This document shows, piece by piece, positions 12,598 through 27,845 of a stretch of 64,000 nucleotides of DNA. The position numbers and the translations under genes are program-made. Within the stretch, counting starts at the first letter, position 1, and the number at the start of each line of letters is the position of its first letter. The notes below the pieces were generated by a model. The model worked only from the letters and a program-made list of their open reading frames with translations, did not search any database and was not told the DNA's origin. Source of the stretch: Nitrospira sp. (lineage in GTDB: Bacteria; Nitrospirota; Nitrospiria; Nitrospirales; Nitrospiraceae); contig JARFXR010000001.1 in assembly GCA_029194535.1 (NCBI GenBank), positions 248,001 to 312,000 on the forward strand, written 5' to 3'.

Positions 12598-13742
12598 TTC
12601 GGCTGCGCCTCTGCAGACACCACCTTGACCTGGGCTCCCGGCACGACCCGCGAGAACCCGTCCACGATCACACGCTCGCCGGCACGGAGCCCCTCTTCGA
12701 TCAGCCAGCGGTCCCCTTCCCAATCCGACGCCTTCACATCTCGGAGTTCCACTTTGTCGCCCTCGCCGACCACATAGACGACGGCGCCCTTCGGCCCCTG
12801 CTGCACCGCCCGCTGCGGGATGAGGATGGCGTTGGGTTTCGATACTCCGTGAAAACGCACGGTCACGAACTGGCCGGGTAACAGCATCCGGTCCGGGTTC
12901 GGGAACACGACCCTCGCCTGCCGAGAACCGGTCTCCGACCGCAAGCTGATGTCGGCAAAATCCAGCTTGCCCTGGTGAGGGTAGATCGTCCCGTCCACAA
13001 AGATGATGGTGCCGGTCAAACTGTAGATCCCCGGATGCTGAATCCGCTGCGACAGGATGTCCCGCCTTCGCTTGAGGAGGAAACTCTCCGGCGCGCTCAC
13101 AATGACATTCATGGGATCGACTTGATGAATCACGGTCAGGAGGTCCGTTTGCGCGGTCACCAGCCGGCCTTGATACGACCGGGTCCGCTCGATCAAGCCG
13201 TCGATGGGGGCGACGATGAGCGTGTTATCGAGATCGAATTTGGCTTTGACCAGATCTCCTTTTGCCGCCTCCAAGGCCGCCTTGGCCGCGAGGTCTTCCG
13301 CGAAGGCGTCATCGACGTCCTTCTGACTGACGGCATCCTCTGCGAGTAACGGCTTGACACGAGCGAGGTTCTGTTTGGCCTGCACCAACCGCGCTTCCGC
13401 CTGCGCGACCCTTGCCTTGGCGCTGATCTCCGCCGCCTTGAAGGGCACGGGATCGATCTCGTAGAGACGATCGCCTTGCTTGACGTCACGGCCCTCGGGG
13501 TAGAACCGCTGCTTGATGATCCCGGTCACTTGCGGCCGGATTTCGACGATGCTCGACGCCTCGGCTTGCCCGATCAGCTCCGGTTCATCGGGCACGGTCT
13601 GAGAACTGACTTCGACGATTTGAACCTCGGGGAGGGGACGGGCGGCTGATGAGCCGGCTTCGCCTTTGCAGCCGGACAGGCCGGCTGCTCCCATCAAAAG
13701 AAGCACGCCGACCGCGAGCCTCGTTGGAATCGCTTCAGTCAC
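12594..13742 (-). CDS. RND periplasmic adaptor lipoprotein (AcrA/MexA family)
   Basis: A 382-residue membrane-fusion protein with lipobox LSGC (Cys25). Order of domains: lipoyl half-motif (GQAEASSIVEIRPQVTGIIKQ), alpha-helical hairpin (about residues 105-165, AEARLVQAKQNLARVKPLLA), second lipoyl half (NTLIVAPIDGLIERTRSYQG), beta barrel and membrane-proximal domain (FVTVRFHGVSKPNAILIPQR). First gene of the adaptor-permease-channel operon. No regulator gene (TetR or two-component) is adjacent. Confidence 0.94.
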   Translation of the reverse strand: MTEAIPTRLAVGVLLLMGAAGLSGCKGEAGSSAARPLPEVQIVEVSSQTVPDEPELIGQAEASSIVEIRPQVTGIIKQRFYPEGRDVKQGDRLYEIDPVPFKAAEISAKARVAQAEARLVQAKQNLARVKPLLAEDAVSQKDVDDAFAEDLAAKAALEAAKGDLVKAKFDLDNTLIVAPIDGLIERTRSYQGRLVTAQTDLLTVIHQVDPMNVIVSAPESFLLKRRRDILSQRIQHPGIYSLTGTIIFVDGTIYPHQGKLDFADISLRSETGSRQARVVFPNPDRMLLPGQFVTVRFHGVSKPNAILIPQRAVQQGPKGAVVYVVGEGDKVELRDVKASDWEGDRWLIEEGLRAGERVIVDGFSRVVPGAQVKVVSAEAQPK

Positions 13743-13897
13743 GGCGACACCCGTCTGTCGGCTCGCCGGCCTTCATGCGCGCGTGCGAAGTCGAGCGCCG
13801 CTGGACTGCGCTTGGCGCGAGAATGACGCACCTGACGGCGGCCTCGACTGTCTGTCCCGCAATGGCATGCAGCGGACGCGTCCATGAATAATGCACG

Positions 13898-14854
13898 TTA
13901 GGAGCGACGTGAACGCTTTTTCTTGGGAGCGGTGCGTGTCGCTCGCTTGGCCCCGGCTTGCATGCTCCGGGAAGCGCTTCGATGCCCAGCCGTGGGACGG
14001 GCCGTCGGCTCTGCCGCCGTGGTGGAGGCAGAGGGAGGCTCTGCGACCCTGTGTTTAAGAGCGGCCGATTCCATCGCCTGGGCGGATTCCGGAACGAGGC
14101 GGTGATCGACTCGGTGAACACAACGGGGCGCTTCGATGCCTGCCGGACCGTAGTAATCATGCCACCAATTGACCGCCTGCCAGATCGCCTCGGGGCAACT
14201 GGACCGGCTCTCCAGCCCCGGAGTCAAATCATATCCGAGCGCGCTGAACACCACCTCCAACATGGCGGCCGAGGGAATGCCGAAGCCTTCCAGCAGAGGA
14301 TTGCCTGCGCGCCCGGCTCCCCAGACAAAGGCCAGCCACCGCACGATCAGCTCGATCCCATCGAGCGCGGTCCGTTGTTTCTGAAACTGCTTGAACGTCC
14401 CGTCGATCTTCTCCCAAGTGAGCTTCTCGGTGCTGCGGATGCCGATCAACGCGATGTTCGGGTACAGGGCGCGATCGCGGTAGGCCTCGATGGTCCCCTG
14501 TTGCAATCCATTGTTCGGAACCGGATACCGAAACCCGGCCGGCGGCTCGAGAGAAATTTCGTGGACCGACGCGGCCTCCCTTGGATCACACAGGACGACG
14601 TGCGACCAACTGCTCGGCGTCAGATCATGTCGAACATGGGCCTGGGCGACACGAAGGCGAAAGGAAACCGGGTCCGTGCCGCCCAGAAGGACCAGCCGGA
14701 TGTGGCCTGAGGATGCCTGCCGCTGACCGAAGTTCGCCGCCACCTTCCCCGCGGCCCGTTGCAACCAAGCCACGTTGTCTTCGCCCGCGTCGCCCGGAAG
14801 CGACTCGATGCAGTCTGATTTCTTGTCGGTTCGCGCCGCGGCTATCGGAAGCAT
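13898..14854 (-). CDS. Conserved hypothetical protein with basic C-terminal tail
   Basis: A 318-residue protein I do not recognise. ATG 14854 follows a clean AAGGAGGA site. Residues about 40-210 look like a globular domain (IRLVLLGGTDPVSFRLRVAQ, TPSSWSHVVLCDPREAASVH, LYPNIALIGI); the Ser-Trp-Ser-His stretch and length recall papain-like NlpC/P60 relatives, but no Cys-His pair can be assigned. The last 45 residues are rich in Ala, Arg, Lys and Ser (KRATRTAPKKKRSRRS), similar to histone-H1-like tails that bind nucleic acid. It lies 12 bp downstream of the PhoD-like gene and is probably cotranscribed with it. Confidence 0.6.
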   Translation of the reverse strand: MLPIAAARTDKKSDCIESLPGDAGEDNVAWLQRAAGKVAANFGQRQASSGHIRLVLLGGTDPVSFRLRVAQAHVRHDLTPSSWSHVVLCDPREAASVHEISLEPPAGFRYPVPNNGLQQGTIEAYRDRALYPNIALIGIRSTEKLTWEKIDGTFKQFQKQRTALDGIELIVRWLAFVWGAGRAGNPLLEGFGIPSAAMLEVVFSALGYDLTPGLESRSSCPEAIWQAVNWWHDYYGPAGIEAPRCVHRVDHRLVPESAQAMESAALKHRVAEPPSASTTAAEPTARPTAGHRSASRSMQAGAKRATRTAPKKKRSRRS

Positions 14855-14866
14855 AGATCCTCCTTC

Positions 14867-16348
14867 TCACAACGGTCGCAGCAGCAGCGGACCCACGGAG
14901 ATCGGCTGCCGCACGGAACTATCCTGATGGATCGGATAATACGTCGCTTGTACATCGACCCCGGTACCGGCGCGGGTGAACGAGAGGAGCACGACCTGAT
15001 CGCCCGGTTGGCCGTGCAGGTCATCCGATCGGTATCGCTTGCCGAGCCATTTGCTTGCGAGAAAGTCGGGCGCCTCCTCCGGATTCGCGTGACGCGGCCA
15101 TGGATCCCGTTTCCCAAACAAGCCTCCCAGGAACCCGCCGGCCCTTTTCAGCTGATCCATGCCCACCGTACCGACCAACGCGCTGGGTGATGAGATGACT
15201 TCATACAGCACAGGACGGGCGAGGCTCACGTCCACGGTTTGCGTCACCCGGCCCCAATGGACGTCCCCGGTGAGGCAGAGGAGCGGTTGCCCCCGGTTGG
15301 GAACAGACACGACCTCACGGATCAGGTCCGGATAGTCCTGGTAATTCGCGAGGGCATAGTCCGCGATGCTGCCTGTCAAGGCTCCGACCGGCGCATCATA
15401 GAGCGATTGTCCCGTGGCGAAGACGCCGAACAGGCGGTCCCGGGCCAGACGGCCGCACCAGGCTTGAAACGCCTGCAGCGCCTGAAGGGGCATCGATCGA
15501 CCAGGCTCGCCCTCATCCTCAGTCCGCCGGCTCCGCGAGTCGGCCAAGAAGAACGAAAGCGGGGGAACATCCAAGATGAAGGGATCGCCCGGTTCGAGCC
15601 GACCCGGAAGCTGGAAACCTCGATACAAGGTTTCCGCAGCCCTGCGCCACCGTTCCCGACCATCCTTGGACTTCGTGTTGCCGATGATCGGGCTGAAATG
15701 AGGGGCGTTGTTCCAATACTCGTGATCGTCCGGAATGCCCACGCAGGGCGCCGAAGCCAGGATCGCCGTCAAGCCGCCGGGTCCTCGCCAATTTCTCACA
15801 TACGAGCTTTCGAACCGCTCGGCCAGCCACGACTCATCATCTTCAAAATCCGTGAGGGTGGGAAGGTCGAGATAGACCTGATCGCCCAATAACAACGTCA
15901 AGTGCGGCCTGACGCTTCCGTTGAATCCACGGACGATCGCACTGACCAACTCGCTGCGATCCTCCGGCTGGTAGTAGCAGGAGACGAGCAACACGTGAAA
16001 TGGGTTGGTCAAGCCGGCCGGAAGTTCATTCGGTAAGGTCCGCGCGTCGATCGACACCCGTTCACCTCCCACGTTCGCGGTAAACGTGAAGGAGGTGTCA
16101 GGTTGCAGGCCGGTGAATTCATAGATGCCGGTGAAGGCCCTGGAAACGGTGTCCGCGACGAGCGGCGGCTTGCGCACGGCGCCAAGAGGCACAATCGGTG
16201 TCGGTGCGGCAGGCGCCCCGTTCACCAGCCACTGGAGCGGGGGAGGGGCCGTCACATCGAACAGGCCGATCCAGATCTGCAGCCGGTCCCCAGCGGAGCC
16301 GCCTGCTGCGGTGATCGGAACGGGGCGAGGATAGAGCCGGCAGTCCAT
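14867..16348 (-). CDS. PhoD-like alkaline phosphatase/phosphodiesterase
   Basis: A 493-residue metallophosphoesterase of the PhoD group. Metal-site motifs appear in order: LLGDQVYLDLPTL (about residue 153), GIPDDHEYWNNAPHF (about 205), FFLADSRSRR and LTGDVHWGRVTQ (about 365). The N-terminal 110 residues form a fibronectin-like domain with YEFTGLQPDTSFTF, as in PhoD. No signal peptide or twin-arginine motif is visible, which is unusual because PhoD is normally Tat-exported; the enzyme may be cytosolic or the start may be wrong. No strong ribosome site at 16348. Confidence 0.82.
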   Translation of the reverse strand: MDCRLYPRPVPITAAGGSAGDRLQIWIGLFDVTAPPPLQWLVNGAPAAPTPIVPLGAVRKPPLVADTVSRAFTGIYEFTGLQPDTSFTFTANVGGERVSIDARTLPNELPAGLTNPFHVLLVSCYYQPEDRSELVSAIVRGFNGSVRPHLTLLLGDQVYLDLPTLTDFEDDESWLAERFESSYVRNWRGPGGLTAILASAPCVGIPDDHEYWNNAPHFSPIIGNTKSKDGRERWRRAAETLYRGFQLPGRLEPGDPFILDVPPLSFFLADSRSRRTEDEGEPGRSMPLQALQAFQAWCGRLARDRLFGVFATGQSLYDAPVGALTGSIADYALANYQDYPDLIREVVSVPNRGQPLLCLTGDVHWGRVTQTVDVSLARPVLYEVISSPSALVGTVGMDQLKRAGGFLGGLFGKRDPWPRHANPEEAPDFLASKWLGKRYRSDDLHGQPGDQVVLLSFTRAGTGVDVQATYYPIHQDSSVRQPISVGPLLLRPL

Positions 16349-16560
16349 CTCGATCAGTCCTGATCCCGCAGGCGCCGCGTGTTTCCCACAGGCCGATAGG
16401 CTTCCCCGCCGGCCCTTCCCAATACGCTGCTACGGGGATGCGCCGTCCGGGTACGCACAGGCTAGTTTTCAGGAACACAGATGTCAACGAGATAAAGTGG
16501 CAAATCGTGTCCTCCCACCGTATGAACCCAGCCCTCTCAGCATCGGTCTTGTTCAGCCCG

Positions 16561-18606
16561 CTACCGACAGCCAGGCAAATCATTCTCGCCGACCCAGACC
16601 GTCGCCTTCTCGCAATCCGCTGCGCTTGGCGGCTGAGGGTCGGGGACCTTCCGGTCCACCGGCGGCAATGTGCGGATGTACGCGACCAAGGATCGGATGT
16701 CTTCCTCATCCCAGTTCGACGCAAAATCCCAGATCATGCCTTGCCAATGCAGCGCCCGCCCGTTCGCGGAGACTCCGCTCCGAATGGCCCGAGCAAGGGC
16801 CGCATCGGACCAGGCGCCGATCCCATTCGTTGGATGGGAAGAAATGTTGCGCGACCACCTGGTGCCCGCCGGCGCCCAACTGGTTTTCCTGTCTCCCTCT
16901 CCGTTGCCCTGGTGGCACATGGCGCAGGAGGCGATCGTAAACAGATACTTCCCTCGCATCACCATGGCGCCATGTTCTTGATTGCGGAACGTGGCCGGGT
17001 CCGGTTCATGAACGGTCGCCAAGACCGGCTGGGCAATTACCTCCGGCGGAATGAACGAGGTCGCCGGCATTTCATAAATGATTCGGATGAGGAACGACAA
17101 GATTCCGATGCCCACAACTCCGAGAATCAGGAGTATCCATCCGGTCGGCCTCCGCGGCCAGCGTCGTTCAGGCGGACCGGCCAGGATACACGCGACCATG
17201 CCGAGGCCCAACACCAGCCATTGCGCCATGATTAAAACCTCTTGAGGCAGATGGCGCCGGATCGGTTCTGATGTGGATTGACCGAAATTGCCGTCCAGGA
17301 ACGTAATCGTTTCGGGAAGGGCCGCGGGGAGCGGACGTGTCAGTTTCCCCACGACGGTTTCCACGATCCCGTAGCGAAGCGGCGGAGGGATGAGATTGCG
17401 CACGGGGGTCAGGGTTTTCAGATAGCCGGCGATCGCCTGCGCATCGTCGTCCTTGAGGGCGTGCAAGAAATGCCACGGCATGTCGAACACGTTCAGATGT
17501 CGATCGGGCGTCTTCCCGTTCCGGAACGCCTCGATTATCTGTTCCGGCGTCCAGCGTCCCAGTCCCGTGTCCGGATCAGAGGTCAGGTTGCGCGATACGA
17601 GGACGCCGTGCGGCCAGACATCGACCCGCTGCCCGCCCGCCAGATAAAAATCGTCCCGATAGATGCCTCCTCTGGTCGCCTGCGTGTGGCAGAGGCCGCA
17701 CATTTGCGCATGCACGAGATAGTCGCCGCGCTTGACCAGATCTGCCTGCCGGCCCGGCCCGCCGAATTGTCCGCCCGGTTCCCACGGGGGAATCCGAGAC
17801 AGCGACAGGACATAATTCACGAGATCCCAGCGCTCAGCCGGGGTGGTCATCTCCGCGAACGAAGGCATGGGACTGGGGGCCAGACCGGTGGTGATTCGCA
17901 ACCAGATCTGTTCCGGCTCGCTCCCGCCTCGGAAGGTCCAGGGCGCGGTGAGGTCGCGGGAGATGACGGGTTGACCTTTCGCATCTGCCAACCGGACTCC
18001 TCCGCGGGCTTCCGGCCCATGACAGACGATGCAGGTTTTCGCGGTGAAGAGCGCGCGGCCACGGCCGACGCTGGCTGCATCGGGTGGGACCCTCGGTGGG
18101 ATCGTGAGTGGGATTGGAGGGGGACCGGCGAAGACGTTCGAGAGGCTCTTGACGTGGGTCACGACGTCGCGAATTTCCTCCGCGCTGAGGATATCCTGCC
18201 AGAAGGGCATCGCGCTGGCCCGGAGACCGGTCGAAACCGTCCGGATCAGATCGGCATCACTCGGCGGCTGACCGGCCGGCGTGGACTTGTATTTGAATTG
18301 GCCTCGGGTGAAATCGCGAGGGCGGGGAGTCAGTGCTGGGGCGGCCGGCCCGTTGCCGCGACCATCAGGGCCGTGACAGACCGCGCAGCGCTGGGCGAAG
18401 ACTCGCTTACCGATCGGCGTGTCGGGCGGCAGATTGGCGCCCGGCGGCCAGGTGATTTCAGCATGGACTGATGGATCCGGTTGCCAGTTTTCAAAGGGCT
18501 GACTATAGCCGACCCGCGCGTAGATCGACCGGCCGAGATCCAGCAGGAGGAGCAGCCCGAGCGTGACCACCATGACTCGGCGCCGTGAACGCAGAAAGTT
18601 TCTCAT
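16561..18606 (-). CDS. Membrane-anchored tetraheme cytochrome c
   Basis: A 681-residue protein with four c-type heme sites: CAVCH (74-78), CIVCH (192-196), CGLCH (303-307) and CAMCH (561-565). An N-terminal membrane segment (about 11-27) anchors heme domains 1-3 in the periplasm. Two more membrane segments (about 457-476 and 489-511) separate the fourth heme domain, so that domain is also periplasmic. Candidate Met ligands follow each heme (ASAMPFW, SPMPSFAE, FDMPWHF). It probably passes electrons between quinol-side and soluble carriers. No adjacent oxidase subunits, so the partner is unknown. Confidence 0.85.
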   Translation of the reverse strand: MRNFLRSRRRVMVVTLGLLLLLDLGRSIYARVGYSQPFENWQPDPSVHAEITWPPGANLPPDTPIGKRVFAQRCAVCHGPDGRGNGPAAPALTPRPRDFTRGQFKYKSTPAGQPPSDADLIRTVSTGLRASAMPFWQDILSAEEIRDVVTHVKSLSNVFAGPPPIPLTIPPRVPPDAASVGRGRALFTAKTCIVCHGPEARGGVRLADAKGQPVISRDLTAPWTFRGGSEPEQIWLRITTGLAPSPMPSFAEMTTPAERWDLVNYVLSLSRIPPWEPGGQFGGPGRQADLVKRGDYLVHAQMCGLCHTQATRGGIYRDDFYLAGGQRVDVWPHGVLVSRNLTSDPDTGLGRWTPEQIIEAFRNGKTPDRHLNVFDMPWHFLHALKDDDAQAIAGYLKTLTPVRNLIPPPLRYGIVETVVGKLTRPLPAALPETITFLDGNFGQSTSEPIRRHLPQEVLIMAQWLVLGLGMVACILAGPPERRWPRRPTGWILLILGVVGIGILSFLIRIIYEMPATSFIPPEVIAQPVLATVHEPDPATFRNQEHGAMVMRGKYLFTIASCAMCHQGNGEGDRKTSWAPAGTRWSRNISSHPTNGIGAWSDAALARAIRSGVSANGRALHWQGMIWDFASNWDEEDIRSLVAYIRTLPPVDRKVPDPQPPSAADCEKATVWVGENDLPGCR

Positions 18607-18687
18607 GGCAGATCAAACGCTCCTTTCGTGTCGTTCGACCGTTGAATGTATGAGAGTTGGCCGGCTGGTGGCATCCGTCTGCCTAAT

Positions 18688-18758
18688 GCCCAACCTCAGC
18701 CGCCGTTTTGCCTCCGCTGTGCTGCGGCAAGACGGCGGCTGGGGCGCCTGGTTAGGGC
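18688..18758 (-). other. attC-like cassette recombination site (distal)
   Basis: Read on the minus strand: GCCCTAAC (18758-18751) ... GTTGGGC (18694-18688), fitting the inverted core sites RYYYAAC and GTTRRRY of integron attC sites apart from one extra base on the left. Between them lie paired arms CAGCCGCCGT/ACGGCGGCTG and an inner TTGCC/GGCAA pair, giving a 71-bp imperfect hairpin, a usual attC length. The stop codon TAG of the 93-residue ORF shares its last base with the site, exactly as in gene cassettes. Confidence 0.75.
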
Positions 18759-19039
18759 TATAACACACCATGTTCAATCTCTTGCAAATAGATGAATTCG
18801 GGGGCCTTTACACCCGCTTGCTTCCTAATTTCGACCAATTCAGGAGATTCGAAGAACCGCCGCGCATTGTCCAGCGATGACCAGGTTGAGAAGTGGACGA
18901 TATTATTTTCGTCGTTTTCGTAGCGTAGTAACTGATAACTGATTTCTCCAGCGTACTTTCTGATGTCCGCTGCTTTGTCGAATACCGCTTTCCATGCGGG
19001 GTAAGACTCGACCTCATGAATGATTAAAACGTGTTGCAT
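18758..19039 (-). CDS. Cassette-encoded antibiotic-biosynthesis-monooxygenase-like protein
   Basis: A 93-residue single-domain protein (MQHVLIIHEVESYPAWKAVF ... HFSTWSSLDNARRFFESPEL). The beta-alpha-beta pattern and the VESYPAWKAVFD and ARRFFESPEL stretches fit the dimeric ferredoxin-like ABM/cyclase superfamily. The catalytic role is not predictable. Only a weak AAAGGTG ribosome site precedes the ATG. Its stop touches the attC site at 18688-18758, so it is the ORF of the second cassette on the minus strand. Confidence 0.7.
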   Translation of the reverse strand: MQHVLIIHEVESYPAWKAVFDKAADIRKYAGEISYQLLRYENDENNIVHFSTWSSLDNARRFFESPELVEIRKQAGVKAPEFIYLQEIEHGVL

Positions 19040-19102
19040 CTAAGCACCTTTGATAAATATCCCTCATTAGTAAGTCTGCCGCAGGCGACCTGCGCAACCC
19101 AG

Positions 19103-19314
19103 CCTGCACTATTCACGATGATTTCTACTGCAACCGGCGATATGCCGCTGCGACTGTTGGAGACAGGCACCCTTCCTCCTGGCACCTGTCCCCCTTCGAA
19201 GGGGACAGGCACCACGCGCAGACGCGCGGAAGGGTGTCAGTCCCCTGGGCTCCGCGTGCCAGTCTCGCCTGGCATCTTGACGGTTTCGTCACGAACCTTC
19301 ATGAATAATGCGGG
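19103..19314. mobile_element. MITE-like element, copy 1 (212 bp, inverted ends)
   Basis: Bounded by CCTGCACTATTCACGA and its inverted partner TCATGAATAATGCGGG. Both ends and inner stretches (right arm through GAAGGGTGTCAGTCCCCTGG, left arm through CTGCAACCGGCGATATGCCG) match, in inverted orientation, the 338-bp element at 30467-30804 at roughly 75-85% by eye. It contains an inner hairpin CCTGTCCCCCTTCGAAGGGGACAGG and no ORF. It abuts a truncated parE gene on its right. The parent transposase is not recognised. Confidence 0.65.
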
Positions 19315-19501
19315 CTAAGGCTCACGATGCATTCGCCGACGGCTTGAGCGCGCACTTCAACTCCTTGCTTCACAACCGGCGATCGGCGCGCAGGCTCGGA
19401 ACATTAAACTTGCCGGTGTCGGTCGCCTTCACCTTACCCGCATCTACTACTATCTCTTCTACCGGGTGAGTCCAGAACCTGCAACAGTCGAGATTCTTGC
19501 G
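19315..19501 (+). pseudogene. RelE/ParE-family toxin, C-terminal remnant
   Basis: In frame from 19319: RLERALQLLASQPAIGAQAR, then NIKLAGVGRLHLTRIYYYLF and YRVSPEPATVEILA. This is the C-terminal half of a ParE/RelE toxin (the RLHLTRIYYYLFYRV strand pair and the VEIL ending are diagnostic). The N-terminal half is missing exactly where the MITE-like element ends, and the last residues are replaced by the 66-bp inverted repeat that starts at 19501. No antitoxin is left. Confidence 0.7.
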
Positions 19502-19566
19502 CAGGGACATTCTGAATTCTTGTCACAGAATGAGCAGCCGCCACCGGAAATTCAGAATGTCCCTGC
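19501..19566. repeat. REP-like hairpin with perfect 18-bp arms
   Basis: GCAGGGACATTCTGAATT at 19501-19518 is inverted exactly at 19549-19566, around a 30-bp centre. Elements of this kind travel with Y1 (IS200-like/RAYT) transposases, but none is in the window. It replaces the 3' end of the parE remnant. Confidence 0.6.
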
Positions 19567-19634
19567 TATTCCTGCGTGTCCAGACTGGCTTCTCACGTGT
19601 GTAAGGGTTGGTAGTCATGGCACGTCTGGATGCC

Positions 19635-19712
19635 GCCCATCGGAGCGGTTCAGCGGCGGGCTTGCCGCAGCGAAGCGGAGGCAAGACCGTCCGCTGGAGC
19701 GCCTTGTTGGAC
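19635..19712 (-). other. attC-like cassette recombination site (proximal)
   Basis: On the minus strand: GTCCAAC (19712-19706), a perfect RYYYAAC, then arms CAGCGGACGG / CCGCCGCTG, inner CTTGCC...GGCAAG, and GATGGGC (19641-19635), one mismatch to GTTRRRY. Total 78 bp. Its central stem shares the CTTGCC, CCGCT, GGCAAG pattern with the other attC-like site, so both belong to one attC type. It follows the stop of the frameshifted cassette ORF by 10 bp. Confidence 0.7.
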
Positions 19713-19722
19713 GGCATGTGCC

Positions 19723-20195
19723 TCACGCCTTTACGGCCCAAGTAGAAGCATCAATTACAAGTCGTTGACCAGCCAACTTTAGGGCCTTTGGGTCAGACAC
19801 CTGCGCAACCCATGCGGCAGCGTGCGCCATTGAATTCTGGTTCTGACGTCCGGGACAGAGAAGCCACGAAAACTCCGGCAGCCCCTCCCGGCCGCACCCA
19901 AATATCTCGAACATGGCGCGGCACACGCTGACACACCAACTGCCGTAGGGGCCTTGATCTATCGCTTCGTCCTCATGCTCGAAGCGAAAGCCAAACTCTC
20001 CGTGGAGTCCGTCTGGCGGAGCAGCGGGCAAACAGCGGAGAAATACAAGTATCTGCTCGATGGCCACCCGCTGTTCAGGCGTTGTTTCATCGAAGCGCTT
20101 CAGCCGCTCCCCGAGGTTATGGCTGCATCAATGATCGGCACATCCTCAGGTCGAATGTCGTATGGCGAAATCTTGTCTTCGCAACAATCCGTCAT
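19723..20195 (-). pseudogene. Cassette 1 ORF, hypothetical protein with one frameshift
   Basis: From ATG 20195, 18 bp after the attI-like core site, the frame reads MTDCCEDKISPYDIRPEDVP then IIDAAI; at about 20115-20122 the sensible reading continues one frame over as NLGERLKRFDETTPEQRVAI and runs to a stop at 19723 (LAGQRLVIDASTWAVKA). The two parts join into one plausible protein of about 157 residues if a base is restored. No family recognised. Either a decayed cassette gene or a sequencing indel. Confidence 0.55.
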
Positions 20196-20212
20196 ACACG
20201 GTATCTCATGCC

Positions 20213-20230
20213 GTCTAACAATGTTTGGAC
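20213..20230 (-). other. attI-like integron attachment site
   Basis: On the minus strand GTCCAAACATTGTTAGAC: a perfect GTTRRRY core (GTTAGAC) preceded by an A-rich half site, close to the AAAACAAAGTTRRRY layout of attI. It lies between the intI remnant and the first cassette ORF and lacks the long paired arms of an attC. Cassette 1 would run from the GTTAGAC here to the GATGGGC at 19635. Confidence 0.55.
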
Positions 20231-20379
20231 AGACTGTATAATCCCATTAAGGCAGCCTGTCCACTTCTGCCTAAACCGGCTGGTACGCGCGGCGTGCCAG
20301 CTCCAACCAATTGCAACATGGGCAGGTTCTGCTCCATTCCCGTTTGCGGATAGTCGTCGTATACAGTCTGTAAAGGACG

Positions 20380-20495
20380 GAGCAGAGACTATCGACCGGA
20401 CTCCTCACCCTGTGGGTGCCCACGTCCTGGTGACCGAGCAGCTCTTGGAGCGTTCGGATATCGCACCCAGCTTGACGCAGATGCGTGAGGCACGT
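20380..20495 (-). pseudogene. Integron integrase (IntI) C-terminal remnant
   Basis: The frame reads THLRQAGCDIRTLQELLGHQ then [16 protein letters not shown]. This is the end of an integron-type tyrosine recombinase: the box II DIRTLQELLGHxDV with its LGH is followed in intact IntI by about a dozen residues carrying the catalytic Tyr (MIYTHVLNRG type), then GVRSPxD. Here the Tyr segment is deleted and RVRSPVDSL is fused directly. Nothing upstream of the box remains; the vapC gene ends 30 bp away. Non-functional. Confidence 0.7.
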
Positions 20496-20521
20496 TCTGG
20501 TGCCTGGAACCGTGTTCAGCC

Positions 20522-20950
20522 TCAACCAAATGGATGCCGCCAGCGAAGCTCAGGAAACCGCGCATAATCACGGTCGGTGGTGATCCATTCTGCGCCGGAC
20601 TCAATGGCCAGCGCGGCCAGATAGGCATCGGCGATGAGGTTTCCCTTCGCGTTCGCGTCTTGGCACAGACGTTGGAAGATGGTCCAATGCCGTTCGCCCG
20701 GCATCAGCGTGACCGCGTTGGGATGACTCCGCAGCGACTCGGCAAACTGGAGCGCGAGATCGAGGGGGGTCGGATCACGAAACACGCGTGGATGGGTGAC
20801 GACTCTCAGAAACCCGCTCAGCACGATCTCGGAGACGCCGAATGCCGCGTCGGATTCCAAGAGATCATTCAGCCAAGCCAGATAATCAGCATGTCGAGCG
20901 GAGTCCTGCCGGTGAGCGTAAACCAGGACGTTAACGTCGGGAAGAATCAA
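20522..20950 (-). CDS. vapC: VapC-family PIN-domain ribonuclease toxin
   Basis: A 142-residue PIN domain protein. Acidic metal ligands are visible: Asp5 (MILPDVNVLVYAHR), Glu41 (SEIVLSGFLRVVTHP), the central Asp in NLIADAYLAALAI and the last in EWITTDRDYARFP. VapC toxins cleave initiator tRNA or rRNA and are held inactive by VapB. The start overlaps the end of vapB by 20 bp, giving coupled translation. Confidence 0.92.
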   Translation of the reverse strand: MILPDVNVLVYAHRQDSARHADYLAWLNDLLESDAAFGVSEIVLSGFLRVVTHPRVFRDPTPLDLALQFAESLRSHPNAVTLMPGERHWTIFQRLCQDANAKGNLIADAYLAALAIESGAEWITTDRDYARFPELRWRHPFG

Positions 20951-21185
20951 CAGGCGACTCCATCAGATCCCATGTGGAGGCGGTATCGTCGAGATCCACT
21001 CCCGGAAGCAGCCCGTGCCTGCCATAGGTCTTCAGGGCCGAGCGACTGCGCCGGCGCGCGCGCCGGCGGGCCAACGACTCTCGGATGGCATCTTCGATCA
21101 ACGCCGTCACGGTCGAATGCGATGTCGCGGCGAGTTTCTTGATCTGAGTCAGGAGCTCAGCAGACAGATTGATCGTGGTTCGCAT
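20931..21185 (-). CDS. vapB: VapB-family ribbon-helix-helix antitoxin
   Basis: An 84-residue protein starting MRTTINLSAELLTQIKKLAA, the beta strand plus two helices of a RHH/CopG DNA-binding domain, followed by a basic linker (RRRARRRSR) and a C-terminal tail that would wrap VapC. First gene of the pair. It probably represses its own promoter through the repeat at 21183-21212. Confidence 0.9.
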   Translation of the reverse strand: MRTTINLSAELLTQIKKLAATSHSTVTALIEDAIRESLARRRARRRSRSALKTYGRHGLLPGVDLDDTASTWDLMESPVDSSRR

Positions 21186-21212
21186 GCATCAAAGCATACG
21201 ATCCATGCATCA
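21183..21212. promoter_or_regulatory. Probable VapBC operator (two 9-bp repeats, 21 bp apart)
   Basis: CATGCATCA occurs at 21183-21191, including the vapB start codon, and again at 21204-21212. The 21-bp period is two helical turns, as expected for two RHH dimers on one DNA face. The core ATGCAT is itself palindromic. Confidence 0.5.
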
Positions 21213-21301
21213 TGATGTCAAGCGAGCGGCGAGCGATACCGACCATGATCTGCGCGCGGGCGAGACGCCTGTCCGATGTGTCCGTCGAGATGAGAGCATG
21301 A

Positions 21302-21386
21302 AGGGTGTCAGGAACCGTTGTCGTGATCAGCGGCGATTCCGCACGGTTGAAGAAAGAATTGGTGCACAATGGTGCCTGACACCTTT
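21302..21386. repeat. REP/MITE-like repeat B, copy 1
   Basis: Starts AGGGTGTCAGGAACCGTTGT and ends GGTGCCTGACACC, so the ends pair (GGTGTCAGG/CCTGACACC). The whole 85 bp matches 25069-25152 in direct orientation with roughly 80-85% identity by eye, including the inner CGGCGATTCCG and TTGAAGAAAGAA stretches. Non-coding, between vapB and the NmrA-like gene. Confidence 0.65.
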
Positions 21387-21432
21387 CTCTCCCGCGGCGT
21401 GGCACGAGTGCTGAAACCGCCTCGAGAACTGC

Positions 21433-22305
21433 TCAGCCCCCTTTGTTCTGCCACGCGAACGCGGTCTCCCGAGCAAAGGCTTCGTACCCGCGAGGTGGAT
21501 GCCCTAATAACTGCGTCAATGCCTTGATGTCCCCGTCGCTCGTGACAAAGCCGCGTTCCAAGTACCCTTGGAACATCACGCGCATGTCAAACGCCATCCA
21601 CGCTGGGGCGATGTTCCGCATGTGTTCTTCCCACGAGTCGAGCGCTTCCCCTGGGTAGCGAATCTCTTTGTGAAGCACTCCGCTCCATATCGACGCCGCG
21701 TCCGGGCCGCTCAAGTCTTTCGGGCCCACGAGATTATATGTTTTTCCCTGGTGACCATCGGTCGTCAGCGCGATCGCGGTAGCCTCCGCGATGTCGCGCA
21801 CGTCCACCGCCGAAATGCCCCGCCTTCCTAGCGGCATCGGGTAGATACCGGCACCCAAGAGCGACTCTTTTACTCGCATATCGTTTTGAAAGAAGTAGCT
21901 CGGGCGAATGATGGTGAACGGGACGTCAAACTCTTTGAGTGCGTTCTCGATAGCCAGCTTCGAAGCGAAGTGCGGCACATCCTTGAACCGGTCTACGTCG
22001 AAGACTGAGTGGTACACGACCTGTCGGAGTTTGCGCCGCTTCGCGAGGCCGTAGGCGATGAGTCCCTGCGTCAGCTCATCGGACACGACAGCGTTCAAGA
22101 GGTACAGCTTGTCTACACCGTCCAGCGCCTTTTGGACCGCTACCGGGTCCAGGAGGTCGCCGACGACCACTTCAACGTCAGCCGGCAAGCTGCCGCCCTT
22201 GCCCCCGCTGCGGACAAGCGCGCGAACCGCGGCATTGCGCTTGCGAAGCTCTTTGACCACTTCGGAGCCGACTGTGCCGGTACTGCCGGTTACGAGAATC
22301 TTCAT
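21433..22305 (-). CDS. NmrA/QorB-like NAD(P)-binding oxidoreductase
   Basis: A 290-residue atypical short-chain dehydrogenase. Rossmann motif ILVTGSTGTVGSEVVKELRK (TGxxGxxG) at the start, DVEVVVGDLLDP after strand 3, then VVYHSVFDVDRF, IIRPSYFFQNDM and a typical NmrA C-terminal half. The catalytic YxxxK is absent, as in NmrA/QorB relatives that act as redox sensors or quinone reductases. AAGGAGGA lies 9 bp before the ATG. Likely cytosolic. Confidence 0.85.
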   Translation of the reverse strand: MKILVTGSTGTVGSEVVKELRKRNAAVRALVRSGGKGGSLPADVEVVVGDLLDPVAVQKALDGVDKLYLLNAVVSDELTQGLIAYGLAKRRKLRQVVYHSVFDVDRFKDVPHFASKLAIENALKEFDVPFTIIRPSYFFQNDMRVKESLLGAGIYPMPLGRRGISAVDVRDIAEATAIALTTDGHQGKTYNLVGPKDLSGPDAASIWSGVLHKEIRYPGEALDSWEEHMRNIAPAWMAFDMRVMFQGYLERGFVTSDGDIKALTQLLGHPPRGYEAFARETAFAWQNKGG

Positions 22306-22356
22306 CTTGAATCGTCCTCCTTGATTGATGCCTTCTTAGAATAGGTGTTCCGGTAA

Positions 22357-22432
22357 GAACCGGTCATGCCTGCGAAAGCGGGCATCCAGAGTGACCTAAA
22401 AAGTCTGGATTCCCGCCTGCGCGGGAATGACG
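22357..22432. repeat. Inverted intergenic repeat (dRS3-like) in the 22306-22651 gap
   Basis: GTCATGCCTGCGAAAGCGGGCATCC faces CTGGATTCCCGCCTGCGCGGGAATGAC around a short AT-rich centre, with smaller hairpins in each arm. Repeats of this design are scattered in many bacterial genomes. The rest of the 346-bp gap holds only one end-like stretch of the MITE family at 22554-22570 (CCCGCATGATTCACGATG). Confidence 0.55.
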
Positions 22433-22651
22433 ACAACAGACTCCATCCCGTCACGAACGAATTTTGAGATAGGTTCTGCAAGGACAACGAGGGCCACTCC
22501 AGCACCGTGACGGAGCGCGTCCATAACACTACCTCCTGATGACGTGAGTCAACAGCCCGCATGATTCACGATGCCTTCAACAACATTGCCCCTCGGTCGG
22601 AGTGAGGGATTTAGGGTGTTCAGCACTCCTGACACGAAGGGAACAGCTCGA

Positions 22652-23323
22652 TCAGATCTCACGCATCGGCGACAGCCGCTCCGGCCGTTCCGCCACGCCG
22701 TGGCCCGCTTCTGCGAGGGGAAGGTACTGGCCGGCCTGGTCATCGAAAGCCATCACGTTGCCGCTCTCGATCTCATAGACCCAGGCATGGAGCCGTAAGC
22801 GACCGCTCGCCAAGGCCGCCAAGACCGAGGGGTGCGTCCGCAGATTCTCGATCTGCACGAGCACGTTTTCCTCGATACAGACTTCGAGCTTGTCGGCGTT
22901 CGATAGCTCCTTGTAGTGCGTCGCCATCACGCGTCTTGTCGCTTCGGCATAGGTCAACCAGCCCTTCGTCGCCGGCAAGTTGTCCAGCGAGGCCGGATCA
23001 AGCACCGCCTTCATCGCGCCGCAATAGGTGTGACCGCAGATGATGATATTCTTGACCGCCAGCGCGTCGATCGCATATTCGATCGCGGCGGCTTCCGCTC
23101 CATGAATAGGGCCATAGGGCGGGATGAGGTTGCCGGCGTTGCGCAGAATGAAGAGATCGCCGGGGACCGTCTGGGTCAGGAGGGTGGGGCTTACCCGGCT
23201 GTCCGAGCAGGTCACAAACAGGGCGTCCGGCTCCTGTCCCTTGCTCAGGCGCTCGAACAGCTCCTTCTTTCGTCCAAAGACGCCGGACTGAAACCGGTGA
23301 ATGCCGTCGATCAGCCTTCTCAT
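22652..23323 (-). CDS. Beta-carbonic anhydrase
   Basis: A 223-residue zinc enzyme interconverting CO2 and bicarbonate. Zinc ligands are in FVTCSDSRVSP (Cys39, with the Asp-Arg dyad) and IICGHTYCGAMKAV (His and Cys near 96-99). Length and the PGDLFILRNAGNLIPPYGP stretch are typical. It probably supplies bicarbonate in the cytosol. A broken duplicate of its N-terminal third lies at 30804-31013. ATG 23323 has only a weak GAGAAAGA site. Confidence 0.95.
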   Translation of the reverse strand: MRRLIDGIHRFQSGVFGRKKELFERLSKGQEPDALFVTCSDSRVSPTLLTQTVPGDLFILRNAGNLIPPYGPIHGAEAAAIEYAIDALAVKNIIICGHTYCGAMKAVLDPASLDNLPATKGWLTYAEATRRVMATHYKELSNADKLEVCIEENVLVQIENLRTHPSVLAALASGRLRLHAWVYEIESGNVMAFDDQAGQYLPLAEAGHGVAERPERLSPMREI

Positions 23324-23398
23324 TCTTTCTCGTATCCATTCGTCTGCCCGCTCACCTTTATCCTTTCCCCCACCGCGGGAGCGGTGGGCAGCGGAGGC

Positions 23399-24040
23399 TC
23401 AGTACCCCACCGTAAACCGCTGCCGGATGTGTGCGGGGCGTTCGACTTCATCCACCATTGCCATGGCATAGTCCTCGACCGAGATACGACTGTTTCCCTC
23501 CGCATCTTTCAGCAACTGATCCGTGCCGAGGCGAAACTTTCCGGTCCGCCGGCCGGGGGACAAATCCGCCGGGGGGGACAGGAAGGACCATTCAAGACTC
23601 GTTTCTGTGCGCAACATGTTCAAGGCCTCCCGTGTCGCGAGAGCCCCCTGCTTCCATTCCCTCGGAAACTCCGGCAAATCGACGGACTGCACACCCGGCT
23701 TGACTTCCAGACTGCCGGCCCCGCCGACGAACAGCAATCGCATGACGCCGGCCTTCTTCACACCGCTGATAATGGCCTTCGTCCCCTTTACTTGTTGGTT
23801 GTAAATGTCCGGGTTGCCCCATCCCGGATTGAAGGCGCTAATGACGGCGTCATGGCCCGCGACCAACCTCGCCACCTCATCCGTCCCAGACACATCGCCC
23901 TTCTGAGGATGCAGGTTTGGATGCGGCTGTAATTTCTCCGGGTCCCGCACGATTGCCGTGACCTCATGGCCTCGATCCAGCGCTTCCTTCAATATGGCCG
24001 ACCCGACAAATCCGGTAGCGCCGATCAATGCGATTTTCAT
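23399..24040 (-). CDS. NAD(P)H-binding reductase (YwnB/SDR-a type)
   Basis: A 213-residue atypical SDR with KIALIGATGFVGSAILKEAL (GATGxxG) and DAVISAFNPGWGNPDIY, LLFVGGAGSL and a short C-terminus ending RQRFTVGY. This is the NAD(P)-binding family of YwnB and biliverdin-reductase-like proteins; substrate unknown. A piece with the same ending (RRFTVGYERG) is found at 32085-32160, so a paralogue was once nearby. It sits 75 bp upstream of the carbonic anhydrase on the same strand. Confidence 0.85.
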   Translation of the reverse strand: MKIALIGATGFVGSAILKEALDRGHEVTAIVRDPEKLQPHPNLHPQKGDVSGTDEVARLVAGHDAVISAFNPGWGNPDIYNQQVKGTKAIISGVKKAGVMRLLFVGGAGSLEVKPGVQSVDLPEFPREWKQGALATREALNMLRTETSLEWSFLSPPADLSPGRRTGKFRLGTDQLLKDAEGNSRISVEDYAMAMVDEVERPAHIRQRFTVGY

Positions 24041-24112
24041 GCGAAACCTCCTCTGCGCCGCGTCTTTGAAGAGACCGCGGCCAGACCCAGGCTTGGGTCT
24101 CTGCGAGAGTCC

Positions 24113-24637
24113 CTACTGCTTGCCACTGCCGATGTCCGCCTGGTGAACGTCGATCGCTGCCCCTGCTTCGTTCAGTTCGATCGTGACAAGGGTGCCTTCC
24201 GCAAAGCCTTTTGTTTTCTGGGCTTGTTCCGTCAACGGAAAGATTTTGTCTCCCTCAGGCGTGTGAATCTTGATCTGTTTATTCGTCATGCCCAGGTGGA
24301 TGAGCTTGCCCGTCTCAAACTGATGTTGTATTTCATGGCCTTTGAGGTGCATGTCGATGATGTAATTGTTTTCATCCAACACCGCGATCACCTCGTCGCC
24401 AGCCTTGAACGGCTCATGGCCGTGACGCCGAGAGATGTTTTCGTTGATCTGATGCTTCGCGCCACCCGGTGTTGTGACCACGAGCGCACCGGCCTTTTCC
24501 GTCACCACGCCGGTAATCTTCGTATGTCCGCGTGCAAGATCCTCTGACGCTGTCGCCGACTTGGCGACCGTTGTGGCGGTGAGAAAAGCGGCGATCAGGG
24601 TCGACAACGCGATCCGTCGAACAGGTATACGCTGCAT
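24113..24637 (-). CDS. Exported hypothetical protein with small beta-domain repeats
   Basis: A 174-residue protein with a signal peptide (IALSTLIAAFLTATTVAKSA). Two similar beta-rich units follow: KITGVVTEKAGALVVTTPGG and LIHLGMTNKQIKIHTPEGDK, each followed by an E-x-V/L-x-I-x-L strand. The G-V-V/T-x-K/I-x-x-x-x-V pattern resembles the two secreted proteins at 46243 and 47044, so they may share one domain type. No function is recognised. Confidence 0.65.
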   Translation of the reverse strand: MQRIPVRRIALSTLIAAFLTATTVAKSATASEDLARGHTKITGVVTEKAGALVVTTPGGAKHQINENISRRHGHEPFKAGDEVIAVLDENNYIIDMHLKGHEIQHQFETGKLIHLGMTNKQIKIHTPEGDKIFPLTEQAQKTKGFAEGTLVTIELNEAGAAIDVHQADIGSGKQ

Positions 24638-24691
24638 GGATTCCTCCAGTACGAGCGACCGATCATGCTGCGGCCCAGCTTCGGTTCACTC

Positions 24692-24845
24692 TCAAAATGG
24701 AAACTGCCGCGACTGATGCTGGACGCTGACCCAGTGGTCCGTAGTGAATTCCTCAATGATCCAATCTCCGCCAAATCGGCCGAGGCCGCTGTTCATCTCG
24801 CCGCCGAACGGACAATTGGGGAGATCGTTGACGGGCACTGCGGCC
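24692..24845 (-). pseudogene. Aldehyde dehydrogenase, C-terminal fragment A
   Basis: The minus frame ending at TGA 24692 reads [20 protein letters not shown] then [20 protein letters not shown]. PFGGxxxSGxGRxGG followed by an xxxEFTxxxWV is the conserved C-terminus of ALDH-superfamily enzymes acting on aromatic aldehydes. Everything upstream (NAD fold, catalytic Cys and Glu) is missing. It resembles the end of the plus-strand ALDH fragment at 28448-29029. Confidence 0.75.
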
Positions 24846-24924
24846 CTGATCTGTCGGGTCTGAGTATTTGGCGTGAATGTTCTCCTTCATTCGGCGCGGT
24901 GATTGCAACAGCCCGTCAAGGTGA

Positions 24925-25065
24925 TCAGCGAAGCCGGAGGCCGGATTTTCCCGGCGCCCATATGCGGTTGGGATCCAACGCCTTCTTCAATCGACGATTG
25001 ATCGACCGCTGGAGAGGGCCAAAGGTCTCGGCCACCTTGTCCATAAAGGCCGTATTCGGATGAGC
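24925..25065 (-). pseudogene. VAO/4-cresol-dehydrogenase-type FAD oxidase, C-terminal fragment
   Basis: Minus frame: HPNTAFMDKVAETFGPLQRS, INRRLKKALDPNRIWAPGKS, then GLRLR and TGA at 24925. The LKKALDPNxIxAPGKSGL ending is the hallmark C-terminus of flavoproteins in the vanillyl-alcohol oxidase group. Only about 45 residues survive. The upstream side is cut off by the repeat B copy at 25069-25152. With the neighbouring ALDH piece it suggests a lost aromatic alcohol and aldehyde oxidation cluster. Confidence 0.7.
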
Positions 25066-25068
25066 GAA

Positions 25069-25152
25069 AAGGTATCAGGAACCGTTTTCGTGATCAACGG
25101 CGATTCCGTAAGGATTGAAGAAAGAAGTTCGTGCAACATGGTTCCTGACATT
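25069..25152. repeat. REP/MITE-like repeat B, copy 2
   Basis: Same element as 21302-21386 in the same orientation: AAGGTATCAGGAACCGTTTT at the left and ATGGTTCCTGACA at the right. It stands exactly at the border between the flavoprotein fragment and the RadC-like fragment. Confidence 0.65.
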
Positions 25153-25297
25153 CTTCTCTCCTCCCATGCTTGTTGGTGGCAGATCCGATCGGTTTCAGTG
25201 GCGGACCTTGTCGCTCAGGGTGGAATTGGGGGCAGGTCTCGACTTTGACAACTTGCCCAGGCTGCCGATCATCGTGAGGATTGGGCTTGGCTGCGAT

Positions 25298-25774
25298 ATG
25301 CCAAATTCAAGTCCTGACCCTTTCCTCCCCGTTTGCATACAGAACTATGCCACCGACTACGCCGAGACGCCCCAAGCCGACCTGTCTTCTGGTTCGGCGA
25401 GAAAGGCAGCATCGGCCAAGCTACACCCGGCCCCACATGCCTATGCGATTCCGCGCTATCGGGTCATGCTGGTGAGGGAGAGCCTGGGACACCCCTCGCC
25501 CCTCACAATCAGGGACTCCGAGAGCGCAGACCGGCTGCTTGTACCGCTATTCGAGGGACTCGATCGCGAACCATTCATGGTCGTGGGTCTCGACGCGAAA
25601 CATGCTGTCATCGGCATCAACCCCGTGAACATCGGATCCGGTACTCTGCGCATCGTCCACCCCCGCGAAGTCTTCACGCCGGTGATCCTCATGAACGCGA
25701 GCGCCGTCATCCTTGGGCAGAATCACCCCTCTAGCCTCAATTCGATCACGCTGGATCATACTCAAACACAATAA
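25298..25774 (+). pseudogene. RadC-like JAB-domain protein, C-terminally truncated
   Basis: Reads YRVMLVRESLGHPSP, FMVVGLDAKHAVIGINPVNI and IVHPREVFTPVILMNASAVI, then LGQNHPS. This is the MPN/JAB domain of RadC-like proteins common on plasmids and islands. The metal motif HxH-PSG is damaged (GQNHPS in place of HNHPSG), and the protein stops 13 residues later, before the final Ser/Asp part of the motif. The start is uncertain; ATG 25298 is the last upstream one before the homology. Likely dead. Confidence 0.7.
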
Positions 25775-26056
25775 AATACGAGATCAATCGTGCTTTCTTG
25801 CCATTGCCTAGTAGGGGCGGTTTTGGCAAACTGGGGGCTGCAAAAGGGGTAAAAAACGGCCTTCCGCTCCCAGAAAGCGATCCCTGCTTCTCCTCGACCG
25901 ATCCCAGTTCCGAAAAGGAGGAAAAGCTATGCCGGCCCCTACACCTACCGCGATCAGACATGCGCTGAAGCGCGTCGAGATCAGCCGCAAGCAGGAGAAC
26001 CTGACCGATGGCGAAGGACGAGGCACCGGCTCTGCCGCGCAACCGAGTGCTTTCAC

Positions 26057-26410
26057 ATGCATAACGAAATCTTCTCGCTGTACCATCTGACGATCGACCC
26101 TGCGAACTTCGACGCCTTCGAGGCGCTTGTCGCTGAGATCGTCCGGGCGACCCGCAAGGAGCCGGACACGACGATCTACGAATACGTCGTCAACGCCGAT
26201 CGTACCGTCGTGCACATCGTCGAGCGCTATCGGACCAAGGGCCTGCTGCCCCACGTGAAGCAAACCTTCGCGCCCTATGCCGACCGATTCCTGAAACTCG
26301 TCCGCATCGAGGCGCTGTATGTCTATGGCGAAACCACGCCCGAGATCCGCGAGATACCGGATGGATTCGGGGCGATCTACCTGACGCCGTTCGCCGGCTT
26401 CTCGCGCTGA
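26057..26410 (+). CDS. Antibiotic biosynthesis monooxygenase (ABM)-like protein
   Basis: A 117-residue protein: MHNEIFSLYHLTIDPANFDA ... ATRKEPDTTIYEYVVNADRT. The ferredoxin-like fold with a TRKEPxxxxYEY segment is typical of quinol-monooxygenase/YgiN-type proteins. First of a plus-strand run (26057-29029) in a neighbourhood otherwise on the minus strand. Codon choice appears different from the flanking genes, in line with transfer, though no statistic was computed. The 282 bp before it hold no gene I can support. Confidence 0.75.
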   Translation: MHNEIFSLYHLTIDPANFDAFEALVAEIVRATRKEPDTTIYEYVVNADRTVVHIVERYRTKGLLPHVKQTFAPYADRFLKLVRIEALYVYGETTPEIREIPDGFGAIYLTPFAGFSR

Positions 26411-26432
26411 CGCGGGGCAGAGGAGCGAATGA

Positions 26433-26903
26433 ATGACGACATCCGCAGCAAGCCCGGCGCCGCAAGGAAAAGGGTTGGACCAACCGCCGCGCGTGCCCTT
26501 CTGGCACATGAGACCGGGTCCCAATGGCGGCAGCACGATCGATCGCGAGTTTCTGGACGGCTTCGTCCGCCGCGTGGTGAGCGGCAACACGGCCCCCATC
26601 TGGATGCGGCGCGTCGAGGGCCGGATCACAGGCGGCTGGTTCACGATCCTGCCCGTCGGTTGGGTGGGCGAGTGGCACGAAAGCCCGGAACCGCAATGGG
26701 TGATCCCGCTTTCGGGACGCTGGTTCATCGAGACGCGCGACGGCAAGCGCGTCGAGATGGGGCCGGGGGACATTCACTGGGGTGCGGATATCGACACCAC
26801 CGGACAACAGGGGCACTTCTCCGGCCAAATCGGAGACGAGCCGTGTGTCCAGTTGCTCGTGCAGTTCGATCGCGACGCCCCGGACATTGGCGCAGGCGGC
26901 TGA
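26433..26903 (+). CDS. Cupin-domain protein
   Basis: A 156-residue single cupin: GGWFTILPVGWVGEWHESPE, WVIPLSGRWFIETRDGKRVE, GPGDIHWGADI and GHFSGQIGDEPCVQLLVQF. The first motif has a single His (EWHESPEPQW) and the second a His in GHFSG, so metal binding is possible. It starts 22 bp after the ABM-like gene. Cytosolic; substrate unknown. Confidence 0.75.
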   Translation: MTTSAASPAPQGKGLDQPPRVPFWHMRPGPNGGSTIDREFLDGFVRRVVSGNTAPIWMRRVEGRITGGWFTILPVGWVGEWHESPEPQWVIPLSGRWFIETRDGKRVEMGPGDIHWGADIDTTGQQGHFSGQIGDEPCVQLLVQFDRDAPDIGAGG

Positions 26904-26983
26904 ACGTCCGCTCGATGCGAGAAGACCGGCAGATCATACCCCATCGTCTCACGTGGCGGGCACGACGAAAGGACATCGGAATC

Positions 26984-27424
26984 ATGTTGAACAGGGTCTT
27001 CATGCTGACAGGTCTCATTGCTGTGGCCGTCGCAGCCGGCGCGGTGGCGGCGAGCGAGGGCGGCGGCAGCAAGAGCTCCACGTTGCTGAAGTCGACCGCT
27101 TCGTGGAACGACATCCGCTACGTGGCCTATCCTGCCGGCCAGCCGGAGCTGACGACGTTGAGGATGACAATACCAGCCAACGCCAAGCTCGATTGGCACC
27201 GGCATCCCATGCCCAACACCGCATATATCCTCTCGGGCACCCTGACGATCGAGGAGAAGGGCACCGGCCGCAAGGCGACCTATCATGCCGGTCAGTCCTT
27301 CGCCGAGTCGGTTGACAACGTCCATCGCGGCACCACTGGCGCCGAGCCGGTCGTAGCGATCGTGACCTATGCTGGCGTGTCGGGCCAACCGCTATCGATC
27401 CCCGTGCCCGAAGCTGGACACTGA
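26984..27424 (+). CDS. Secreted cupin-domain protein
   Basis: A 146-residue protein with a signal peptide (MLTGLIAVAVAAGAVAASEG). A cupin follows: LDWHRHPMPNTAYILSGTLT (motif 1 with the WHxH-type metal pair) and FAESVDNVHRGTTGAEPVVA (motif 2). The chosen ATG 26984 starts the signal peptide; the open frame upstream lacks one. Likely periplasmic. Confidence 0.78.
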   Translation: MLNRVFMLTGLIAVAVAAGAVAASEGGGSKSSTLLKSTASWNDIRYVAYPAGQPELTTLRMTIPANAKLDWHRHPMPNTAYILSGTLTIEEKGTGRKATYHAGQSFAESVDNVHRGTTGAEPVVAIVTYAGVSGQPLSIPVPEAGH

Positions 27425-27430
27425 CCCGTG

Positions 27431-27794: not shown

Positions 27795-27845
27795 GCGCTC
27801 GATCCGTCATCTTTCCTCACAATCAAACCTGCAAGGAAAAACGCC

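Follow-up and report, generated by a model that had tools for sequence, protein, structure and literature searches.

The minus strand of the window (the whole 64,000-nt stretch of DNA analysed here) carries what is almost certainly a relic of a chromosomal inverted-integrase integron, a type whose integrase gene intI is transcribed towards attI and shares a strand with the cassettes. From position 20487 to 18681, the strand reads integron-integrase tail, spacer and attI core, followed by two cassettes, the first ending in attC 1 and the second in attC 2 (Table 1). Of the defining parts of an integron, attI, cassettes bounded by attC sites with R and L boxes, and intI are present, the last only as a remnant; its end points towards attI on the cassette strand, and not away from the cassettes as in the classical, divergent layout. 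The locus is thus a real integron relic, probably of a dead integron. The locus itself is new; its kind, the inverted-integrase layout, is already known. The preliminary description had proposed a decayed chromosomal integron of Treponema-like layout, its integrase end turned towards attI and the array, and the order, strand and homology of the parts bear this out.

Table 1. Elements of the integron relic, in minus-strand order (positions within the window).
Feature	Position	Strand	Evidence and remarks
intI 3′ remnant	20385-20487	-	blastp, TIGR02249, genome HMM match, DNA match, alignment
Spacer, intI end to attI core (about 160 nt)	20220-20384	-	alignments, repeat test
attI core GTTAGAC	20213-20219	-	flank AAACATT/GTT; cassette insertion point after its G
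Cassette 1	19635-20218	-	bounded by attI core and attC 1
Cassette 1 gene	19723-20195	-	three-frame reading; listed ORF 19723-20067
attC 1	19635-19712	-	models R1 and R2; fold; R″ GTCCAAC, R′ GATGGGC (GTT core lost)
Cassette 2	18681-19634	-	bounded by attC 1 and attC 2
Cassette 2 ORF (93 aa), antibiotic biosynthesis monooxygenase (ABM) family	18758-19039	-	PF03992
attC 2	18681-18757	-	models R1 (weak) and R2; fold; R″ CCCTAAC

The integrase remnant consists of 34 codons that align, around a 12-residue in-frame gap, with the C-terminal 46 positions of integron integrases. The missing stretch corresponds to TMIYTHVLNKGG of the relatives and includes the tyrosine that serves as the recombinase nucleophile; in addition, the remnant has TGC where the relatives carry the stop TGA. 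The enclosing reading frame (20271-20525, 84 aa) matches the integron integrase family TIGR02249 best, at 30.0 bits (family cut-off 265 bits) versus 24.4 for XerD and 22.7 for XerC. In blastp searches the closest proteins of the local integrase set were the IntIs of loci L098 (E 1.6e-10) and L052 (E 2.2e-10), whereas the best of the genome's own Xer proteins reached only E 6e-5. The preliminary identification of an IntI C terminus, for which a closer match to XerC or XerD had been named as the counter-test, is therefore upheld by both family profile and blastp. The remnant was recovered at E 1.4e-6 in an HMM search of its own genome, and a whole-genome search returned no integrase above the family cut-off. 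Homology to intI ends at 20487, from where the DNA match to L052 runs inward, and vapC ends at 20522. The latter belongs to a vapBC-like toxin–antitoxin pair (20522-21185; PIN/Mtu_PIN_fam and RHH_1) directly upstream of the remnant. A 14-nt repeat lies on either side of the pair: TGGTGCCTGGAACC at 20498-20511, TGGTGCCTGACACC at 21370-21383.

The attI-like core noted at first is present, and its flank is that of relatives: AAACATT/GTT is common to the window, L064, L072, L052 and a further integron of the same genome (L189). Across the search family, the attI flanks comprise two main types with variants, CTCAATA/GTT and AAACATT/GTT. At 9 of 13 search-family loci, the best match to the R″ box of the first cassette is found 137-208 nt beyond the stop codon of intI; the exceptions are L057, L060, L061 and L066, with a core and its usual flank 1522 nt away in L061. 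The locus has two attC sites, and its intI is not intact. An automatic finder might call it a CALIN, a cluster of attC sites lacking an integrase, since the integrase tail, at 34 codons, falls far under the TIGR02249 cut-off; the tail would then be a scrap of an unrelated tyrosine recombinase that happens to lie alongside. This is very improbable, because after the tail comes an attI that can be recognised from IntI-bearing relatives, and cassette 1 starts exactly at that attI.

Damage to the region and the repeats within it could also suggest that the integron was once classical and that its intI remnant was flipped by a rearrangement, the same-strand layout being an accident of decay. Such a history is highly unlikely, since from tail to attI the window is collinear with L072 (79% DNA identity over 195 nt), L052 (73% over 194 nt) and the genome's third integron (86.6% over 201 nt, L178 alignment), and since its layout is the usual one among search-family integrons. 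Specifically, a search at E 1e-60 found 25 IntI matches (L008 and L051-L074) spread over 22 of the 175 genomes in the search family; 19 of the 20 scorable loci were inverted and one (L058) was classical, with five having no attC in the flanks examined. Layout was scored here from the 58 of 65 attC matches that reached 22.3 bits; two of the seven weaker matches dropped were reverse-strand shadows of true attC sites. Several of these loci keep an open intI. One genome, G044, has both layouts, in the classical L058 (G044:C1:353000-372900) and the inverted L053.

Inverted integrons are also found well beyond the search family. In named genome records, layout was assigned from attC strand and position for the best 80 of at least 593 confirmed relatives, giving 19 inverted, 20 classical and 41 uncalled loci. 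Four of the inverted labels (L099, L132, L101 and L102) were assigned on weak attC matches (best 16.6-21.5 bits); L166, with one 22-nt minus-strand match of 17 bits, was left uncalled, and neither a stray match in L124 (18.8 bits) nor the reverse-strand shadows of L115 and L139 were taken into account. A quick integrase tree of 99 rows was built, leaving out search-family proteins shorter than 250 aa and L070-L073; the layout of its 35 inverted and 21 classical integrases needs two changes, and a single inverted clade is not rejected by the AU test (p-AU 0.797, 56 rows). L052 and other search-family members group (SH-aLRT 96) with a Treponema denticola-labelled MAG, Treponema bryantii and a Spirochaetes bacterium, and the same group holds Coriobacteriia, Planctomycetota, Omnitrophota, Chlorobiaceae and Cyanobacteriota, these names being record titles, mostly of MAGs. 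The window remnant is itself too short for the tree, and its nearest relatives (L052 by tail and attI; L098 and L052 by blastp) sit in the inverted clade.

Other search-family integrases occur at further places within the inverted clade; with several such places and one classical search-family locus, repeated acquisition is favoured over one private lineage. Judging from these sequences, the search family would have undergone repeated horizontal acquisition and loss, several acquisitions being more likely than one. The preliminary description had instead taken the layout as a sign of an old, independent integron in this lineage, a claim that the data do not support: the layout is that of an already recognised inverted-integrase group with records labelled as many phyla, search-family integrases are spread within that group, and L058 is classical. 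Nor did the proposed search for intact versions of the locus in related genomes succeed, as no orthologous intact locus was found among genus relatives. Synteny of the flanking genes was uninformative, the flanking cytochrome gene occurring in three of seven genus genomes, namely the window's own and two others in which it is 61% identical, and the flanking NmrA-like gene being absent from all six other genus genomes.

Evidence for the attC sites came from covariance models, which were built because a strict pattern scan (RYYYAAC / GTTRRRY plus a fold filter) missed both window sites. Model R1 comprises 17 attC sites from the search family, and R2 comprises 16 attC sites from classical-layout integrons of other bacteria in named genome records; neither window site was used in building either. 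R1 and R2 are not fully independent, because the R2 training sites were first located with R1. In the window, attC 1 scored 29.0 bits with R1 (E 3.3e-5) and 30.2 bits with R2 (E 6.6e-5), with boundaries exactly as originally noted. attC 2 was weak with R1 (16.8 bits, E 0.035) and good with R2 (30.1 bits, E 7.1e-5); the site was accepted, but both models set its boundaries at 18681-18757 instead of the 18688-18758 noted at first. Rejection by such models had been named as grounds for abandoning the integron, and both sites were accepted, attC 2 weakly in the case of R1.

Up to E 10, R2 returned no matches in the 64 kb other than attC 1 and attC 2, which lie on one strand, 10 and 0 nt past an ORF stop, respectively; R1 gave two further, weaker matches in the window. 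Across the genome (3.98 Mb; 150 of 2697 candidates scored), R2 gave eight matches up to E 10, among which the window sites ranked second and third and sites of the genome's two other integron loci ranked first and fourth. The corresponding R1 search (150 of 2972 candidates scored) placed the window sites fourth and seventh of nine, with attC 2 at E 2.23. Repeats with inverted arms do occur nearby, but given the exclusiveness of the R2 matches, their common strand, their positions at ORF stops and their genome-wide ranks, the chance that these are non-integron hairpins such as terminators or REP elements is negligible.

When folded as DNA, the bottom strands of both sites were unusually stable (z −3.83 for attC 1 and −3.79 for attC 2; none of 200 shuffles was as low). 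The top strand of attC 1 gave z −1.38, and that of attC 2 gave z −3.69, nearly the stability of its bottom strand. The R′ boxes are aberrant. All 17 sites behind R1 have GTT in the R′ box, where the sequence of attC 1 is altered; in attC 2, both models read R′ as ATTAGGC, with GTT lost. An alternative R′ just before it, GTTGGGC, keeps GTT and fits the earlier boundary, but it sits almost directly against the inner stem, so that the spacer to L′ is lost. attC 2 is abnormal under either reading, and identification of the integron is independent of which one holds. An Rfam search with an E limit of 1 returned two matches, each far under the gathering score of its family; one of them sits on the attC 1 hairpin, on the opposite strand.

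The cassettes themselves retain features of insertion at attI. The end arms of cassette 1 (20207-20221 and 19704-19718) are complementary at 14 of 15 positions, as expected of a circular cassette opened and inserted at attI. From its apparent start at 20195, the cassette 1 gene is apparently frameshifted between about 20130 and 20100, a call made from the reading frames because the listed ORF has no relatives: none was found at E 1e-5 in the 174 other search-family genomes or at E 0.01 in plasmids. A search of Pfam and NCBIfam at E 0.001 assigned the ORF to no family. The cassette 2 ORF reached E 1.9e-5 and 25.2 bits with PF03992 (cut-off 23.1), its stop codon abuts attC 2, and about 595 nt of non-coding, repeat-bearing DNA precede it. 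The picture of two cassette ORFs that end at their attC sites has to be amended for the cassette 1 gene, apparently split over two frames, and for the long non-coding portion ahead of the cassette 2 ORF.

Two repeats occur in the vicinity. A 72-nt element with perfect 18-nt inverted arms (19501-19518 and 19549-19566) lies at 19502-19573; the genome contains just one further copy at E 1e-5 (92%), at C1:1027243, about 1.7 kb beyond the last attC match of a second integron (integron b, below). At 19247-19317, in the non-coding part of cassette 2, is a dispersed repeat with 79-88% copies in L062, L010 and L058.

Integrons recombine cassettes by the action of IntI on attI and on the folded bottom strand of attC. 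As an inverted integron, the window locus would have had an IntI, transcribed towards attI and the array, that joined circular cassettes at attI via the folded attC bottom strand, and two cassettes would have been captured in standard orientation. Death of the platform would have involved the loss of most of intI up to the junction beside the vapBC pair, a 12-codon in-frame deletion that took out the catalytic-tyrosine stretch, and damage to both attC sites at the R′ end, so that the two cassettes would now be frozen in place. The order, orientation, homology and losses are plain at the locus; the past activity, the sequence in which the losses occurred and the present inactivity are what we infer from them. 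The three decayed platforms of this genome (below) show what an integron can leave behind when it dies, attI and cassette genes having outlasted the integrase.

Transcription of intI towards attI is described for the Treponema integron in the available text of one report (PMC3607928), and the name ‘inverted integrase group’ appears in excerpts of a review (PMC10500605). The window locus resembles Treponema denticola-type inverted integrons, as far as these are covered there, in that intI runs towards attI in the same direction as the cassettes, and the relatives of its tail group (SH-aLRT 96) with integrases of Treponema and other Spirochaetota. Unlike those integrons, it has nearly lost the integrase, holds two cassettes only and has attC sites damaged at the R′ end. 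Relative to the search-family integrons, it has the same order and attC form and in part the same attI flank, but lacks most of intI. According to the accessible part of a survey, IntegronFinder 2.0 detected two CALINs in Candidatus Nitrospira inopinata (PMC9024848); like these, the window has attC sites without a working integrase, but unlike them, on that partial account, it keeps attI and the intI tail, and its layout is therefore readable. A chlorite dismutase, the one protein used to check the genus name Nitrospira for the window, was not diagnostic. Excerpts of a paper on archaeal integrons mention homologous attC sites in Nitrospirota and reverse-oriented IntIs of Spirochaetota (PMC9668308), and Nitrospirota is absent from the list of integron-bearing phyla in the available portion of a 2021 overview (PMC8618304). 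In the portions of the open-licence literature at hand, no description was found of inverted integrons in the search family; what is mentioned there for this family goes no further than two clusters lacking an integrase and attC matches at the level of the phylum, and earlier reports may exist.

The spacer between intI and attI has a further feature that may bear on how inverted integrons work. In the window it contains a 13-nt inverted pair (1 mismatch), with one copy beside the former intI end and the other beside the attI core. Copies of the core-proximal element likewise occur just after the intI stop in L063 (inverted, 20 nt, 1 mismatch) and L067 (direct, 16 nt, 1 mismatch), the second copy lying roughly 140-155 nt upstream of the core. 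At 8 of 13 loci, the better of the direct and inverted matches was longer than in any of 40 mononucleotide shuffles; L051, L054, L056, L062 and L008 did not exceed the shuffles. We only tentatively suggest, and consider it rather doubtful, that the inverted integrons of the search family use a two-part attI with a second element after the intI stop. Such an element might serve as an accessory site for IntI or for a repressor, linking read-through from intI with the entry of cassettes. A core-proximal copy after the intI stop, direct or inverted, is seen in L063, L064, L067, L072, L189 and the window (20220-20384). A sigma-70-type promoter scan of 20150-20420 gave one match, on the plus strand, and no match for a cassette promoter Pc on the minus strand; promoters of this organism may differ from the sigma-70 type. 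A minus-strand candidate picked out by eye, TGGACA-17-TATACA, is not claimed as a promoter because the scan does not report it.

The genome that includes the window holds two more broken inverted integrons (b and c), and thus three decayed platforms, two of them sisters, without an integrase over the family cut-off. Integron b (G000:C1:1021535-1025562; L008 11536-15563) has an intI broken into two frames plus a TAA, an attI of the CTCAATA/GTT type, three attC matches and a glyoxalase-family gene as first cassette. Integron c (G000:C1:1534667-1536891; L189 9668-11892) consists of an intI tail, an attI of the window's type and three attC-like matches (31.0, 22.0 and 14.0 bits), with genes for a GNAT acetyltransferase, a DUF433/DUF5615 pair and a nucleotidyltransferase. 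By sequence comparison of tail and attI, integron c is evidently the sister of the window integron. Comparison of window positions 12001-28000 with 20 kb round integron c revealed only the 201-nt tail-attI stretch in common (E 1e-3), and the two may therefore have arisen by duplication or have arrived separately from a common source. If the two-part attI were real, it and the three dead platforms of this one genome would make the search family a showcase of repeated integron arrival and death. A possible fourth cassette cluster occurs at G000:C2:423992-425756, where two attC-like matches lie 1.6 kb apart on one strand (22.9 and 25.0 bits with R2; absent among the R1 matches).
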